Shown here: positions 1-36,462 of the stretch, piece by piece
Layout: each line of letters begins with the position of its first letter
Numbering within the stretch: position 1 is the stretch's first letter
NCBI GenBank assembly: GCA_947479815.1
Contig: CANKAT010000026.1
Span: 1 to 36,462 of the forward strand
DNA length: 36,462 bases
Origin: Sphingobacteriaceae bacterium
GTDB taxonomy: Bacteria > Bacteroidota > Bacteroidia > Sphingobacteriales > Sphingobacteriaceae
Reading direction: 5' to 3'
Made by a program: the position numbers and the translations under genes
Notes under the pieces: generated by a model
The model's database searches: none
The model's input: the letters and a program-made list of their open reading frames with translations, nothing else
Told to the model about the DNA's origin: nothing

Positions 1-165
1 GAGGTATGAGGTATGAACATGGCAAAAAGCAATAAATTTCAAAATATTACTGAATTGTCCTTTGTCTTTGATCCTTGGTCTTGGTTCTTGGTTCTGTTAT
101 CAGTTATCTGTTGTCAGTTGTCTGTTATCAGTTATCTGTTGTCTGTTATCTGTTATCAGTTGTCA

Positions 166-181
166 CCCGATAGCTATCGGG
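166..181. repeat. 16-bp palindrome CCCGATAGCTATCGGG, copy 1
   Basis: A perfect self-complementary 16-mer inside the heptamer array. Removing 15 nt of it restores an intact TTGTCAG heptamer and the 7-bp phase of the flanking array, so it reads as an insertion. No T-run follows, so it does not look like an intrinsic terminator. Confidence 0.9.
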
Positions 182-340
182 TTGTCTGAGGTATGAGGTA
201 TGAGGTCAGAGTTATGAAATATGAAGTCAGAGGTCTGAATTCGGAAAAAAGCGGTAAACTTCAAATTAGCGCTGAATTTTCTTTTGTCTTTGATCCTTGG
301 TCTTTGCTCTTGGCTCCTTTGGTTCTGTTATCTGTTGTCA

Positions 341-550: not shown

Positions 551-3163
551 CTAAGCCTTCAACACCCTCTGAATCTCATCCAACTTCATTAATGCCTCAA
601 CGGGTGTGAGCGTATTCACATCCAGGTTGTTTAACATATCCCTGATTTTAACCAATACCGGATCATCAATGGAGAACATCTGTAACTGATAAGCCTGTTT
701 CTGAACTTTTTTGAGACTATCCTTAATATCTTCGCCTCCGGTTCTTTCCTGCTCCAGGCGTTTCAGGATTTCATTGGCCCGGTTAACCAATTGCTGAGGC
801 ATGCCGGCCATTTTTGCAACATGAATTCCAAAACTATGCTCACTTCCACCTGGTACCAGCTTTCGCAAGAAAATGACCTTGTTACCAAGCTCTTTAACAG
901 AAACATTAAAATTCTTGATTCTATTGAATGAATTTGTTAATTCATTTAACTCGTGGTAATGCGTTGCAAATAGGGTTTTTGCCTGAGCAGTTGGATGATT
1001 ATGAAGATATTCAGCGATTGACCACGCTATGGATATCCCATCATAGGTACTGGTTCCTCGACCTATCTCATCCATTAGAATCAAGCTTCTGGGTGATAGA
1101 TTATTCAAAATGCTAGCCGTCTCGTTCATTTCAACCATGAAGGTTGATTCGCCTGAAGTAAGGTTATCAGAAGCTCCAACACGGGTAAATATTTTATCAA
1201 CGATCCCAATCTGAGCTTCTTTTGCAGGTACAAAGCATCCCATTTGAGCCATCAGAACGATCAGCCCGGTTTGCCTTAACAAGGCCGACTTACCCGACAT
1301 ATTCGGACCGGTAATGATGATAATTTGCTGATTATCATTATCTAGAAAGACATCATTGGTAATGTATTCTTCGCCAGCTGGAAGATGCTTTTCGATTACC
1401 GGGTGTCTTCCCCCTTTGATGTCGATTATCGTACTACCATCGACAAGCGGCTTGACATAATAATTTTTGATGGCCAGATTTGAAAAATTCAATAAAACAT
1501 CTAACTGCGCCACTAATTGAGCGTTAAGCTGTATAGGCTTGATGAATTCGGAAAGTGCATAGGTCAACTCATGATATAAGCGGGTTTCCAATACCTGAAT
1601 CTTTTCTTCTGCCCCCAGAATCTGCTCTTCATATTCCTTCAATTCGGGTGTAATGTAGCGTTCAGCATTGACCAAGGTTTGTTTCCTGAGCCATTCTGCA
1701 GGTACTTTGTCTTTATGAGTATGTGTTACTTCCAAATAATACCCAAATACATTATTAAAAGCAACTTTAAGTGATGGAATACCAGTAATCTCTGCTTCCC
1801 TTTTTTGAATTTCAAGCAGATATCCTTTACCGCCAAAAGCGATTTTTCGCAAGCGATCAAGTTCTTCATCAACTCCATCAGCAATTACACTACCCTTGAT
1901 TAGCATGACCGGAGGGTCCGGATTTAATTCCCGCTCAATTCGATCACGAATCAAAATGCAAGGATTCAACTGCTCGGCAATAGTTTTTAACGCGTAATTA
2001 GTAGCATCTTGGCAAATTTCTTTCAAATTGAATATGGCATATAATGCACGTTTCAACTGCATTACTTCTCTCGGATTGGCCTTCTGAAGTCCAATTTTAG
2101 AGATCAGTCTTTCCAAATCACCGATCTGTTTCAATTCACTAAGCAAATTTTCACGTAGTTCCTCATTATTGACCAGAAATTCAACCACATCTAGGCGCTC
2201 TTGGATAGGTTTTTGTTCTTTAAGTGGCATAATGATCCAGCGTCGAAGCAATCGTGCACCCATGGGTGAACAGGTCTTATCCAAAACATCCACCAAACTA
2301 ACAGCATTTTCATTGGCAGAACCAATTAATTCTAAATTTCGAATCGTGAAGCGGTCAAGCCACATATATCGATCCTCTTCTATTCTTGAAACTGAAGAAA
2401 TATGCTGAAGATTACGATGCTCAGTTTCATTCAGATAATGCAAAGCAACACCTGCTGCTGTGATAGCTAAGGGTAATTTTTCAATACCAAACCCTTTTAA
2501 AGAATTAACTTCAAAATGCTTCAGGAGAATTTCACTGGCATAATCACCACCGTAAGCCCAATCATCAAGGTGGTAGGTATAAAAACGATCACCAAATGTT
2601 TCTACAAAATCACGCTGCCTGCTTTTCTGAAAAATTACCTCACTGGGCTTGAAACTTTGAAGAAGCTTATCAATATAATCGGCATTACCCTGGGCTACTA
2701 AAAATTCGCCGGTCGAAATATCAATGAATGCGATACCCAATGAATTTTTCTCGAAATAAAGTGAAGCCAAGTAATTATTTGTATTCTGCTGAATAATATT
2801 GTCACTGTATGAAACTCCAGGAGTGATCAACTCAGTCACTCCGCGTTTTACAATCGTTTTGGTTGTTTTAGGATCTTCCAGCTGGTCGCAAATGGCTACT
2901 CGTTGACCTGCTCTAACTAATTTAGGTAGATAAGTTTCTAAAGAATGATGTGGAAAACCTGCAAGCTCGGTATGTGTGCCGGATCCATTTCCACGTTTTG
3001 TGAGAACAATTCCTAGAATTCCTGATGCCTTTACCGCATCCTGACCAAAAGTTTCATAAAAATCACCCACACGAAACAATAACAATGCACCAGGGTATTT
3101 AGCCTTGATGGTATTGTATTGCAGCATTAAGGGGGTTTCCTTCTGTTCGGTCTTTTTCGACAA
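551..3163 (-). CDS. mutS: DNA mismatch repair protein MutS
   Basis: MutS recognises base mismatches and small loops in DNA and starts mismatch repair with MutL. The 870-residue product has the usual length. The N-terminal mismatch-binding motif is present (F35-Y-E37 in GDFYETFG). The ABC-type ATPase domain has a Walker A near residues 618-625 (GPNMSGKS) and a Walker B with DEIGRGTST. The ORF opens with TTG ([12 protein letters not shown]), which fits the N-termini of relatives; the next in-frame Met, at residue 13, would remove conserved sequence. The stop codon TAG coincides with the start of a heptamer array (AGTATT-type words) that runs to position 1. The gene appears to be transcribed alone. 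The assignment is secure. Confidence 0.97.
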
Positions 3164-11319: not shown

Positions 11320-11327
11320 TACTTTTG
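11320..11327 (+). promoter_or_regulatory. -7 promoter element of the SRP RNA gene
   Basis: TACTTTTG matches TAnnTTTG exactly and ends four bases before the predicted 5' end of the SRP RNA at 11331, the spacing expected for the start of transcription. The upstream TTTG element is weak or absent. Confidence 0.65.
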
Positions 11328-11330
11328 TGA

Positions 11331-11430
11331 CGGGCAAGTCTTTTACGACCAGCTCCCTTTGAACTCCCCCAGGGTGGGAACGCAGCAAGGGTAGAAGGTT
11401 GTAGCGGTGCGATAAAAGGTGCTTGCCCAT
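11331..11430 (+). ncRNA. ffs: Small signal recognition particle RNA (4.5S type)
   Basis: This is the RNA scaffold of the signal recognition particle; with Ffh it delivers nascent membrane and secreted proteins to FtsY. The ends pair (GGGCAAG at 11332-11338 with CTTGCCC at 11422-11428). The apical domain shows the conserved asymmetric loop and tetraloop region (GGTGGGAACGCAGCAAGGGT, about 11373-11392), the Ffh-binding hallmark. The length of about 100 nt is that of the short bacterial form without an Alu domain. A T-run directly after the closing stem at 11431 would end transcription. The exact 5' and 3' ends are estimates from pairing. Confidence 0.92.
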
Positions 11431-11438
11431 TTTTTTTT

Positions 11439-12529: not shown

Positions 12530-12606
12530 GGGGGGAAAGCTGAAAGGGGAAAGCTGAAAGCTGAAAGGTTAAAGCCGAAAGCTGAAAGCAAAAAGGGGGA
12601 AAGCCT
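12524..12606. repeat. AGCTGAA heptamer array overlapping the fsa stop
   Basis: About eleven 7-bp words in strict phase, beginning with the word that contains the fsa stop codon (AAGTAAG) and continuing as variants of AGCTGAA (AGGGGAA, AGGTTAA, AGCCGAA). No coding frame runs through it. Confidence 0.9.
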
Positions 12607-12695: not shown

Positions 12696-13673
12696 TTGAA
12701 ATTGGAAAATATATACGATATTCTAATCATTGGCGGAGGGCCAATAGGCATGGCTTGTGGAATAGAAGCACAGAATGCAGGACTTAGCTATGTGATCGTT
12801 GAAAAAGGATGCATGGTTAATTCACTGTATAATTACCCTGCGAATATGACCTTCTTTTCTACTTCAGATAAACTGGAAATTGGTGGGGTGCCATTTGTGA
12901 GCAACAATATCAAACCAACACGAAGTGAGGCTTTAGAATATTACCGAAGAGTGGCATGTAAATTTAACCTCAATCTGAATTTATTTGAACTGGTTGAATC
13001 TGTTAATAAAGATTCTGGAAAATATATCGTTCATACTAATAAATCTGATTATCAAGTTAAATACATCATTGTATCTACGGGATTCTATGACATTCCAAAT
13101 AAATTAAATATTCCAGGCGAAGACCTTCCTAAAGTTAGGCATTATTATAAAGACCCTCACTACTACGCAAAACAGAAAGTATTAGTGATTGGTTCAAATA
13201 ACTCTTCAGTAGATGCGGCCTTAGAAACTTTTAGAAAAGGTGCTGAGGTTTGTATGGTGATTCGTGAATCAGAGATCGGAGAACGGGTAAAATACTGGGT
13301 CAGGCCCGATATTATAAATAGAATTAAGGAAGGAAGCATCAAAGTCTATTTTAATTCAAGCTTAAGCGCTATCAGCGAACATGAAGTTGAAATAAGTAGC
13401 CATGAAGGTAAAATAACAATAGTCAATGATTTTGTTTTAGCAATGACAGGCTACAAGCCTGATTTTTCATTTCTTAAAAAGCTTGGCATCAAGATCTCTA
13501 CTGATAAACAACAAAGGCCTGAACATGATCCGGTAACAATGGAAACCAATATGAAGGGCATTTACCTTGCAGGTGTGGTTTGCGGCGGAATGGACACTCA
13601 TATTTGGTTCATTGAAAATTCGAGGGTACACGCGGAACGGATAATTGAAAATATTAAATTGATTGATGGGTGA
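12696..13673 (+). CDS. YpdA/Bdr-like bacillithiol-disulfide reductase
   Basis: An FAD- and NADPH-binding flavoprotein related to Bacillus YpdA (Bdr), which reduces oxidised bacillithiol. The 325-residue product has an N-terminal FAD motif GGGPIGMA (about 13-20), the YpdA signature VNSLYNYPANMTFFST including the family's Cys nearby (C34 in EKGCMVN), a second nucleotide-binding motif VLVIGSNNSSVDAALE, and a closing GVVCGGMDT. No CxxC redox pair is seen, so it is not a thioredoxin reductase. The start is TTG, because an in-frame TAG sits directly upstream and no ATG is available. The last codons and stop lie inside a TGATGGG repeat. The role is inferred from the family. Confidence 0.85.
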   Translation: MKLENIYDILIIGGGPIGMACGIEAQNAGLSYVIVEKGCMVNSLYNYPANMTFFSTSDKLEIGGVPFVSNNIKPTRSEALEYYRRVACKFNLNLNLFELVESVNKDSGKYIVHTNKSDYQVKYIIVSTGFYDIPNKLNIPGEDLPKVRHYYKDPHYYAKQKVLVIGSNNSSVDAALETFRKGAEVCMVIRESEIGERVKYWVRPDIINRIKEGSIKVYFNSSLSAISEHEVEISSHEGKITIVNDFVLAMTGYKPDFSFLKKLGIKISTDKQQRPEHDPVTMETNMKGIYLAGVVCGGMDTHIWFIENSRVHAERIIENIKLIDG

Positions 13674-13731
13674 TGGGTGATGGGGGTTGTCAGTTGTCTG
13701 TTGTCTGTTATCAGTGGTCTGACTTTGCGGA
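13664..13731. repeat. Heptamer array overlapping the end of the YpdA-like gene
   Basis: TGATGGG is repeated three times from 13664, and the second copy contains the TGA stop codon in phase. It continues into GGTTGTC, AGTTGTC, TGTTGTC and TGTTATC words. From about 13735 to 13850 I see no gene and no clear repeat. Confidence 0.88.
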
Positions 13732-13853
13732 GAGCATGAATAATGGCAAAATGACAATTTAATTGAGTAGTACTAATAGATGATCATTGATTCAAATAAA
13801 TTCATTCTCTGCTTACTGTTTTATCGTTCCAGCCAGTCAACGGATAACTTAAG

Positions 13854-14107
13854 AATTGAGCCAAGACAAAGGATCAAGAACAAAGGACAATTCAGTGGCA
13901 ATTTGAAATTTTCTGTTTTTTTTCAGACCTTCTGATCTCGCACCTCAGACTTCCTGCTTCAGACAACCCGATAGCTATCGGGTGACAACAGATAAATAAT
14001 AGTATTAAGTACTGAGTATTGAGTATTGCGATAATTTAGCTTCATTTCATAGCAGCACTTCAGACTTCAGACCTCAGACCTCAGACCTCAGACTTCAGAC
14101 TTCAGAC
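13854..14107. repeat. Heptamer-repeat block downstream of the gmhB-like gene
   Basis: A compound repeat in the same order as the unit at the right edge: CCAAGACAAAGGATCAAG-type words, a spacer with CAATTCAGTG and CAATTTGAA, then CAGACCT-type words, a palindrome copy, GAGTATT words, and finally five to eight CAGACTT or CAGACCT words. The last word ends exactly on the CTA that is the complement of the gmhB-like TAG stop. It fills the gap between two genes that end towards each other. Confidence 0.88.
13967..13982. repeat. 16-bp palindrome, copy 3
   Basis: Identical to the copies at 166 and 341. On the minus strand it again follows TTGTCA and precedes TTGTCTG, so the surrounding array is the same element in the other orientation. 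Confidence 0.9.
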
Positions 14108-21762: not shown

Positions 21763-21838
<76 letters not shown>

Positions 21839-21847
21839 ATAAGAAAC

Positions 21848-21871
21848 TCCCTCCTCACAGAGGGAATTTTT
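21848..21871 (+). terminator. Terminator of tRNA-Gly
   Basis: TCCCTC (21848-21853) pairs with GAGGGA (21860-21865) around a 6-nt loop, with T residues following. The stem is short, but the position just after the tRNA supports it. Confidence 0.65.
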
Positions 21872-21895
21872 GTTTGAAATAGTAAATAACCATCT

Positions 21896-21964
21896 GCTCG
21901 GATGGTGGATCCCGATAACTATCGGGAGGTAGACACGAGAACGGTTTCGATTACCGTATTATAA
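21896..21964 (+). pseudogene. Broken tRNA-Leu copy with palindrome in its D-loop
   Basis: A 23-bp block at 21887-21909 repeats the leader and 5' end of the intact tRNA-Leu (21972-21994). Where the real gene reads ACT inside the D-loop, this copy has an 18-nt block containing CCCGATAACTATCGGG; the tRNA sequence GGTAGACACG then resumes. The anticodon arm is missing, but a T-arm-like hairpin (ACGGT, loop TTCGATT, ACCGT) follows. No matching 3' acceptor strand is found. It is probably a dead duplicate. Confidence 0.8.
21911..21926. repeat. 16-bp palindrome variant, copy 4
   Basis: CCCGATAACTATCGGG: 7-bp arms identical to the other copies, with the centre AC in place of GC. It lies within the D-loop position of the broken tRNA-Leu copy, flanked by T and A. 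Confidence 0.88.
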
Positions 21965-21980
21965 AATCGTTTAACCATCT

Positions 21981-22066
21981 GCTCGGATGGTGGAACTGGT
22001 AGACACGCAGGACTTAAAATCCTGTGACCCTTAAAGGTCGTGCGGGTTCGATTCCCGCTCCGAGTA
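21981..22066 (+). tRNA. tRNA-Leu (UAA)
   Basis: The acceptor stem GCTCGGA pairs with TCCGAGT, including a G-U first pair. It is a class II tRNA with a long variable arm (GTGACCCTTAAAGGTCGT region). The anticodon loop is CTTAAAA with anticodon TAA, and the T-arm is GCGGG, TTCGATT, CCCGC. CCA is not encoded in full. It is followed by its own terminator and flanked by two partial copies of itself. Confidence 0.96.
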
Positions 22067-22069
22067 CAA

Positions 22070-34929: not shown

Positions 34930-36075
34930 ATGATCAAATTACTTTCTCCAAAAATTACATCCATCCTTTTTCTACTTTTTATTTCATTATCTGGATTTGC
35001 TCAAAATGAAAAAGCAGAAGCTGATTTGGGTGAGATCATGAAAAAACTAGACGTAGTGGGGCTTTCTGTCGCCGTAGTAAAGAAAGGCAATATTATTTAC
35101 AGCCATTCTTTTGGAGTGAAAGATAACACCACCAATGCTCCCCTCACTGATGAAAATATCTTCCGGATTGCTTCGATATCCAAGTCATTCTCAGCCACTT
35201 CAATCATGCAGTTGATAGAAGCTGGAAAGCTTTCACTGGATGATGATTTCAGTAATCTGGTGGGCTTCAATATTAGGAATCCTAAATTTCCGGAAACAGT
35301 AATCACCTTGAGAATGATCTTATCCCATACTTCAAGCATTAACGATAGCCAGGGATATTTTACACTTGATGCCATTAATCCGGCTAAAAACCCAGATTGG
35401 CAAAAATGCTATAGCGATTTTAAACCAGGAACAGATTATCGCTATTGTAATCTAAATTATAACATGATCGGAACCGTGATTGAGAAATACTCAGGAGAAC
35501 GCTTCGATCAATATGTAAATAAACACATCTTAAATCCATTGGGTTTATATGGAGGATACAATGTTGATTCATTGGATGCTATGCGCTTTGCCACTTTGCA
35601 CGAATACAATACAAGCACTAAAAGATTAATCCCATCACCATTAGCTTACGCTCCCAGAAAAGAGGAAATAAAGAATTATGTAATGGGATACAGTACCCCT
35701 ATTTTTTCTCCAACCGGTGGAATGAAAATTTCTGCTACCGACCTTGCAAAATATATGACCATGCATATGAACTATGGTAAATATAAAGGAACCAGAATCA
35801 TGTCAAAGAAAAGTGCCCGCTTAATGCAAACCAAAATATCTGAGGAAGAAGGCTATGGAATGGCAATTGCAAATCGTGAAGATGTTATACCGGGTAAAAT
35901 AATGACCGGACATACTGGTTCAGCATACGGACTATACAGCGCCATGTTTTTTAATCCTAAAGAGAAATTTGGAATTGTGGTGATTACTAATGGCTGTAAT
36001 CCAAGCTCAAGAAATGGACTAAATGATGTTTTAAGGGCTGGAGTGAATAGTTTGTACGAGAATTTTATTAAGTAG
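34930..36075 (+). CDS. Secreted S12 serine hydrolase (class C beta-lactamase fold)
   Basis: A 381-residue penicillin-binding-protein-like hydrolase. Active-site motifs are S82-I-S-K85 (SxxK), YCN in YRYCNLNYN (YxN), and HTG in MTGHTGSAYG. The ATG at 34930 gives a clean signal peptide (MIKLLSPKITSILFLLFISL, ending GFAQ); earlier Met codons at 34870 and 34906 would add a long charged leader. Relatives include D-aminopeptidases, esterases and amidases, so the substrate is open. It diverges from the cluster and shares the operator region, so it is probably co-regulated. Its TAG stop lies directly before a heptamer array. Confidence 0.9.
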   Translation: MIKLLSPKITSILFLLFISLSGFAQNEKAEADLGEIMKKLDVVGLSVAVVKKGNIIYSHSFGVKDNTTNAPLTDENIFRIASISKSFSATSIMQLIEAGKLSLDDDFSNLVGFNIRNPKFPETVITLRMILSHTSSINDSQGYFTLDAINPAKNPDWQKCYSDFKPGTDYRYCNLNYNMIGTVIEKYSGERFDQYVNKHILNPLGLYGGYNVDSLDAMRFATLHEYNTSTKRLIPSPLAYAPRKEEIKNYVMGYSTPIFSPTGGMKISATDLAKYMTMHMNYGKYKGTRIMSKKSARLMQTKISEEEGYGMAIANREDVIPGKIMTGHTGSAYGLYSAMFFNPKEKFGIVVITNGCNPSSRNGLNDVLRAGVNSLYENFIK

Positions 36076-36462
36076 AATCAGGAACCAAGAGCCAAGAACC
36101 AAGAACCAAGAACCAAGAACCAAGAACCAAGACAAAAGATCAAAGACAAAAGACAAAAGATCAAAGACAAAAGACTTTGTAGTGCTAATTTGCGTATTGA
36201 GTATTGAGTATTGAGATAGATTCTGCTTCAGGCTTCAGACCTCTGACTTCAGACCTCTTACCTCAGAAAACAGATAACAGATAACAGACAACTGATAACA
36301 GACAACTGATAACTGACAACTGACAACAGAACCAGGAACAAAGATCAAAGACAAAGGACTATTCAGTGCTAATTTGAGTATTGAGTAAGGAGTATTGATT
36401 ATAGAGTATTGAGTATTGAGATAGATTCTGCTTCAGGCTTCAGACCTCTGACTTCAGACCTC
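36076..36462. repeat. Heptamer-repeat region at the right edge
   Basis: A heptamer array that starts immediately after the S12 hydrolase stop codon. It begins with AACCAAG words, then ACAAAAG and ATCAAAG, a spacer holding GTGCTAATTTG, TATTGAG words, a GATAGATTCTGCTTCAGG link, CAGACCT words, CAGATAA and CAACTGA words (about 19 in one phase), and again ACAAAGATC words. The block at 36213-36257 recurs identically at 36418-36462 (45 bp, offset 205 bp), where the window ends. It is the same element as at 1-550, in the opposite orientation. No coding frame is supported. Confidence 0.9.

Follow-up and report, generated by a model that had tools for sequence, protein, structure and literature searches.

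Tandem arrays of heptanucleotides are an already known kind of bacterial sequence. Direct repeats of TAACTGA, along with other heptamers, have been described in five Bacteroidetes and also in Beggiatoaceae and Cyanobacteria (MacGregor 2015, PMC4679880), and degenerate heptamers occur as (GGGANTN)n in Xanthomonas and as GGGGA(C/T)T in Nostoc (Rehm et al. 2015, PMC4692102). An excess of heptamer arrays has been reported for many prokaryotes, with slippage of the polymerase as the proposed cause (Mrazek 2007, cited in PMC4679880 and PMC4692102). The tandem repeats of Borg elements (PMC9879509) evolve fast and are found both between genes and in frame inside ORFs, as are the arrays that we describe here; unlike the latter, they are perfect, have many unit lengths and reside on extrachromosomal archaeal elements.

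We analysed a stretch of 36,462 nt (hereafter, the window) that makes up all of contig C26 in a draft genome (G000) of 3.2 Mb, assembled into 157 contigs. The MutS protein that it encodes is 97% identical to that of the MAG CAMDKO010000127 and 92% identical to that of Daejeonella sp. JGW-45, so that the host organism can be placed, by sequence identity, in or very near Daejeonella (Sphingobacteriaceae). Without presupposing any core, the genome yielded 237 exact tandem runs distributed in 55 cyclic word classes. The commonest class (37 of the 237 runs), GATAACT, is TAACTGA rotated, and four perfect tandem copies of TAACTGA are present. The preliminary description of this DNA recognised no Bacteroidota counterpart of this complexity, a statement not supported in view of the repeats of those five Bacteroidetes; the parallel that it drew with cyanobacterial heptamers was fair. 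The resemblance to the repeats of MacGregor (PMC4679880) extends to their intergenic location, to the other heptamers found alongside, to the conserved gene neighbourhoods in which arrays appear and vanish, and to their orientation, since those repeats run forward towards start codons and, in a single instance from F. litoralis, follow a stop codon in reverse. However, in those genomes one word mostly stands alone, whereas here many words drift in a single register, composite units occur, and arrays border stops even more than starts. With the repeats of Xanthomonas and Nostoc, our arrays share the outward strand polarity at ORF edges and the inverted pairs, but not the G-tracts able to form G-quadruplexes: the common words lack GGG, and there are dozens of word classes instead of one consensus per genome. 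As in the long simple sequence repeats of Mrazek (2007), known to us through PMC4679880 and PMC4692102, 7 nt is the favoured unit and slippage the proposed origin; those repeats were counted as regular ones, whereas the present arrays are heavily degenerate yet in phase. A literature search retrieved no paper on such arrays in Sphingobacteriaceae, nor any description of a one-substitution word network in common phase, of species-by-species turnover at fixed loci, of an insertion in ispG or of an explicit start-and-stop polarity rule across genera. Among 395 Bacteroidota genomes, four tandem copies of TAACTGA were detected in 12, from several families, and the reversed (uncomplemented) word in one; with this single control word, there is no more than a hint of a word preference.

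The array closest to the beginning of the window is strictly periodic. Between positions 59 and 164, the minus strand carries 16 consecutive GA dinucleotides (164, 157, 150 ... 66, 59) spaced by exactly 7 bp. The lag-7 identity of 62-165 is 0.763, against 0.347 ± 0.046 (z 9; maximum 0.526) in 5000 dinucleotide shuffles, and no other stretch of equal length outside the arrays exceeds 0.526. Lags of 14, 21, 28 and 35 are high too, unlike those that are not multiples of 7. Along this array (56-164, minus strand), words of family A (GATAACA, GACAACT and others) give way in phase to words of family B, in the succession GACAACT/GATAACA... to GAACCAA, GACCAAG, GATCAAA and GACAAAG. The heptamer register and the in-phase change of words put forward in the preliminary description were therefore both confirmed, but the heptamers do not carry on in phase past the interruption that follows, since an 18-bp palindrome (ACCCGATAGCTATCGGGT, 165-182) breaks the 7-bp phase and the next GA spacings are 8, 14, 21 and 21. 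This palindrome recurs at 340-357 and 13966-13983, and its 16-bp core is found 48 times in the genome. The core is also present in 22 of 60 relatives, including genomes without AGA-type arrays such as G043.

Heptamer texture fills positions 1-560 and reappears at 12530-12593, 13661-14107 and 36070-36462. On the minus strand, the palindrome is followed by family C words (TACCTCA, GACCTCA, GACTTCA; 183-238), by two more composite units made of a non-heptameric linker (GACTGTTAGTGCTAGTTGAAATTTTCTAC-like) and C, A and B blocks (239-487), and by family D words (GAGTATT, GAGTAGT; 519-553) that extend from the stop codon (TAG, 551-553) of mutS (551-3163, minus strand), a gene recognised by its Pfam MutS domains. 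On the plus strand, a family E array (GAAAGCT, GAAAGGG; 12530-12593) lies immediately 3' of the stop codon of an aldolase-family gene. At 13661-13712, GATGGGT units, followed by family A on the minus strand, take in the upstream gene's own last codons, which indicates that arrays can be seeded in place. Farther on, B words, linker, palindrome and D words lead to a C array that reaches a convergent stop codon (13862-14107, plus strand), and the last block (36070-36462, plus strand) runs from a stop codon (36073-36075) to the contig end as B, D, a second linker (GAGATAGATTCTGCTTCA), C, A, B, linker, D and C. The contig thus ends inside arrays at both positions 1 and 36462, as do further contigs, among them C82, C138, C31 and C111; arrays therefore fragment the assembly. 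An Rfam search matched no family at the arrays; elsewhere in the window (11325-11432 and 21763-22067) there are an ordinary Bacteroidales small SRP RNA, a tRNA-Gly and a tRNA-Leu.

Similar sequences are scattered across the genome, with 149 BLAST matches to 62-240 in dozens of places. The search for period 7 that had been proposed, applied to 164 kb sampled around array loci, gave 119 period-7 regions, whereas each period other than 7 and its multiples gave 10 or fewer; these counts derive from searches and from stretches chosen around arrays, the smaller stretches of other genomes being a less biased check. At L076:3400-3850, arrays of CTAACCAT CTAACCAA CTAATTA combine units of 8, 8 and 7 bp and have periods of 8, 15 and 23.

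Read on the GA strand, the words define family A as GA[TC]AAC[ATC], B as GAACCAA, GAGCAAA, GATCAAA and GACAAAA, C as [GT]AC[CT]TC[ATC], D as [GT]AGTA[TG]T, E as [GA]AAAG[CGT][CGT] and F as AAGTTAT. The form nAGAnnn that had been attributed to most words holds for the common families but cannot be generalised: GA occurs on one strand in 35 of the 55 classes (64%, versus 65% for random words), and we rejected a universal GA/AGA core. What the words do share is a network of single substitutions. All 24 commoner classes have a neighbour at one substitution (12.0 ± 2.9 in the null), and the largest component gathers 20 of these 24 (null 4.8 ± 1.9). Where families adjoin directly, distinct junctions are in phase in 11 of 12 cases for A-B, 11 of 12 for C-A and 16 of 16 for E-F. 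Phase is lost where a linker or the palindrome separates two families, and congeners have D-B junctions that do not keep it, so that the randomisation of phase at word changes that would have spoken against a single register is found at these junctions but not at the direct ones. Many junctions are copies of a few ancestral ones, since composite units of the type B-linker-C-A, with linker GACTGTTTAGTGCTAATTGAAATTTTCTGCTTTTTTC, recur at many loci. Phase kept through word change is a prediction of descent with substitution. Unit-to-unit identity also declines with distance, from 0.76 to 0.53 over 12 units. Adjacent words are identical slightly less often than after shuffling of their order (90 versus 109 in family A, 10 versus 17 in family C), and a multi-unit order is repeated in only 5 of 76 arrays; multi-unit block duplication is accordingly weak as a general origin of word order.

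The position of the arrays relative to genes is highly constrained. All array clusters but one (33 of 34) lie outside ORFs, the exception being ispG, and arrays commonly start within 10 bp of stop codons. Among runs that lie no more than 25 bp from an ORF edge, those of family A turn their 3' side to the edge in 27 of 27 cases (16 stops, where the word is reversed, and 11 starts, all forward, each start being set at the ORF's first start codon and hence possibly placed too far upstream), and those of families B, D and E turn their 5' side to it in 11 of 11. One strand of each family thus reads outward from the ORF, at starts and stops alike. In this outward strand G outnumbers C at 30 of the 32 stops and 13 of the 14 starts bordered by arrays; at edges that lack arrays, the excess of G is weaker at starts and absent at stops. 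The polarity count within this genome is inflated because composite units share descent, but this does not hold across other Bacteroidota genera with TAACTGA arrays: in four genomes, all five arrays that have a single ORF edge within 30 bp also turn their 3' side to it. The rule agrees with published remarks on Xanthomonas, Nostoc, Beggiatoaceae and Flexibacter. Unstructured A-rich leaders could explain the orientation at starts, but not at stops.

Comparison with congeners revealed a rapid turnover at fixed loci. Across the genus, six in-phase AGANNNN units have from 0 to 122 matches per genome. The 3' flank of mutS carries differing heptamer arrays that start in or at the stop codon in ten congeners and none in eight others; their words are GATATGA/GATGTGA in G001, GAACCAA and GAAAGCT in G007 and GAACAAA in G018, and their length ranges from about 50 bp in G009 to some 550 in the window genome. 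GATATGA/GATGTGA words are plentiful in G008, whose MutS is 97% identical, and in the more distant G001 and G012, but scarce in G000; word sets, therefore, do not track the species tree.

The essential gene ispG (Pfam GcpE, E 1.6e-122; L070:1852-3984, contig C13) contains a heptamer array translated in frame in its inter-domain linker, as a peptide of LSVISYQ.../TTDNRQQ repeats whose length varies by congener (L212-L240). It is absent in G012 and G015, short in G003, G006, G009 and G019, and long in G000, G008 and G016; in G004, a different and independent word, AAGTTGC, occupies the same spot. A 42-bp block (six 7-mers, fourteen codons) is present in one, two and three copies in the sisters G000, G008 and G016, respectively, with exact 42-bp spacing, which is direct evidence, at this one locus, that whole units are duplicated in tandem. 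In ispG, steps of 21 bp or its multiples are at an advantage because they keep the reading frame, and clear 21-bp steps occur in this gene alone; the suggestion that 21 bp reflects two helical turns is thus not supported. By contrast, the idea of copying in 7-nt steps with accumulating errors was upheld by the one-substitution network, the identity decay and the ispG blocks. A dedicated 7-nt copying enzyme finds no support: the genome has no RVT_1 reverse transcriptase, and ispG changed by ordinary duplication of blocks in tandem.

We consider that these arrays are probably heptanucleotide minisatellites, subject to whole-unit tandem duplication, substitution drift and spread of blocks between intergenic sites. 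The exclusive period of 7, the word network, the identity decay, the 42-bp ispG blocks, the turnover at the mutS flank and the in-place seeding at 13661 support this reading. New units would arise whole, through slippage during replication or through unequal recombination, and a substitution in one unit would spread as that unit is duplicated, so that the word drifts but the register cannot change. Pieces of arrays may then seed fresh intergenic sites through recombination; composite blocks with shared linkers do recur at dozens of sites. Growth would be limited mainly by coding sequence, such that arrays reach stop and start codons and, in ispG, an in-frame inter-domain linker. A sequence-specific function would not be needed, the fixed orientation at ORF edges being a further constraint. 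Not everything fits. The slight deficit of identical adjacent words in families A and C is the opposite of what single-unit slippage produces and, like the weak multi-unit order, counts against the simplest slippage model; neither the polarity rule nor co-evolving inverted arms are predicted by a minisatellite origin, and it does not account for the preference for seven; octamer arms exist in G012.

These inverted arms suggest an alternative, in which the arrays are the arms of intergenic hairpins acting as bidirectional terminators or RNA-stability elements, selection or hairpin template switching keeping the arms complementary and generating inverted pairs and outward polarity. We compared one convergent gene pair across the genus: in six species, words of one kind, read outward, border the ends of both genes, and these words vary from species to species; in G012 (L313) the inverted arms downstream of the gene are made of octamers (TTAATATG, CTAATGAG) rather than heptamers. 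Arms are more similar within species (24.2) than between species (14.5; permutation P 1.5e-4), a similarity of which species-wide word dictionaries could be a partial cause. Moreover, this locus folds with z values of -2.4 to -4.6 in G002, G003, G006, G012 and G017, L071 reaches -9.6, and clusters with both orientations of family A show the minus-then-plus order in 9 of 9 cases. However, shuffled sequences fold as well as the window arrays do (z -0.9 to +1.0), and the convergent locus in G000 and G008, where no hairpins are found, gives the same picture, so that the hairpin reading is not general. Most family A clusters, in addition, have a single orientation, and arrays occur inside ispG too. 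At some loci hairpins may contribute to the mechanism, or the arrays may serve as terminators, but as the origin of the arrays we consider hairpins unlikely.

Selection of the 7-bp spacing by a DNA- or RNA-binding protein would explain why the register is maintained through word change, and Csp-type proteins bind heptamers, one protein per heptamer, as quoted in PMC4679880. It seems nevertheless very improbable for arrays whose word classes have no conserved core, whose words are replaced wholesale at orthologous sites and which close congeners lack. A similarly low probability applies to an origin of the arrays from a mobile or templated element that is dispersed, REP/MITE-like or made by reverse transcription, even though composite units of constant block order, with linkers, recur at many loci and the ends near genes are fixed: profile searches found neither RVT_1 (PF00078) nor the Y1_Tnp transposase expected of a REP/RAYT system (PF01797) in this genome, across the genus neither protein shows any trend with array number, array edges fall at varying word positions with no fixed terminus, and the mutS and ispG arrays have been altered in place. 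We found no match to plasmids or phages either, although low-complexity filtering may conceal some. Finally, the 157 contigs, several of them ending in arrays, including both ends of the window contig, could raise the suspicion of an assembly artefact, but similar arrays in congeners of about 10 contigs (G018, G002) and in-frame ispG arrays in independent assemblies make this extremely unlikely.

Beyond the minisatellite origin that we favour, a wider idea may be advanced, tentatively and with less confidence: that heptamer arrays of unrelated bacteria, whatever their word, obey one outward law, that the arms at both edges of an intergenic region co-evolve, and that arrays are built and oriented by hairpin-dependent amplification or by selection at ORF edges. 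Why bacterial satellites favour seven bases has long been asked. In Daejeonella there are 20 species that range from no arrays to more than 100 matches and bear different words at the same loci, together with an in-frame marker, ispG, in which the gain and loss of units can be read, and the orientation rule is a directional constraint that a plain slippage model has to explain.
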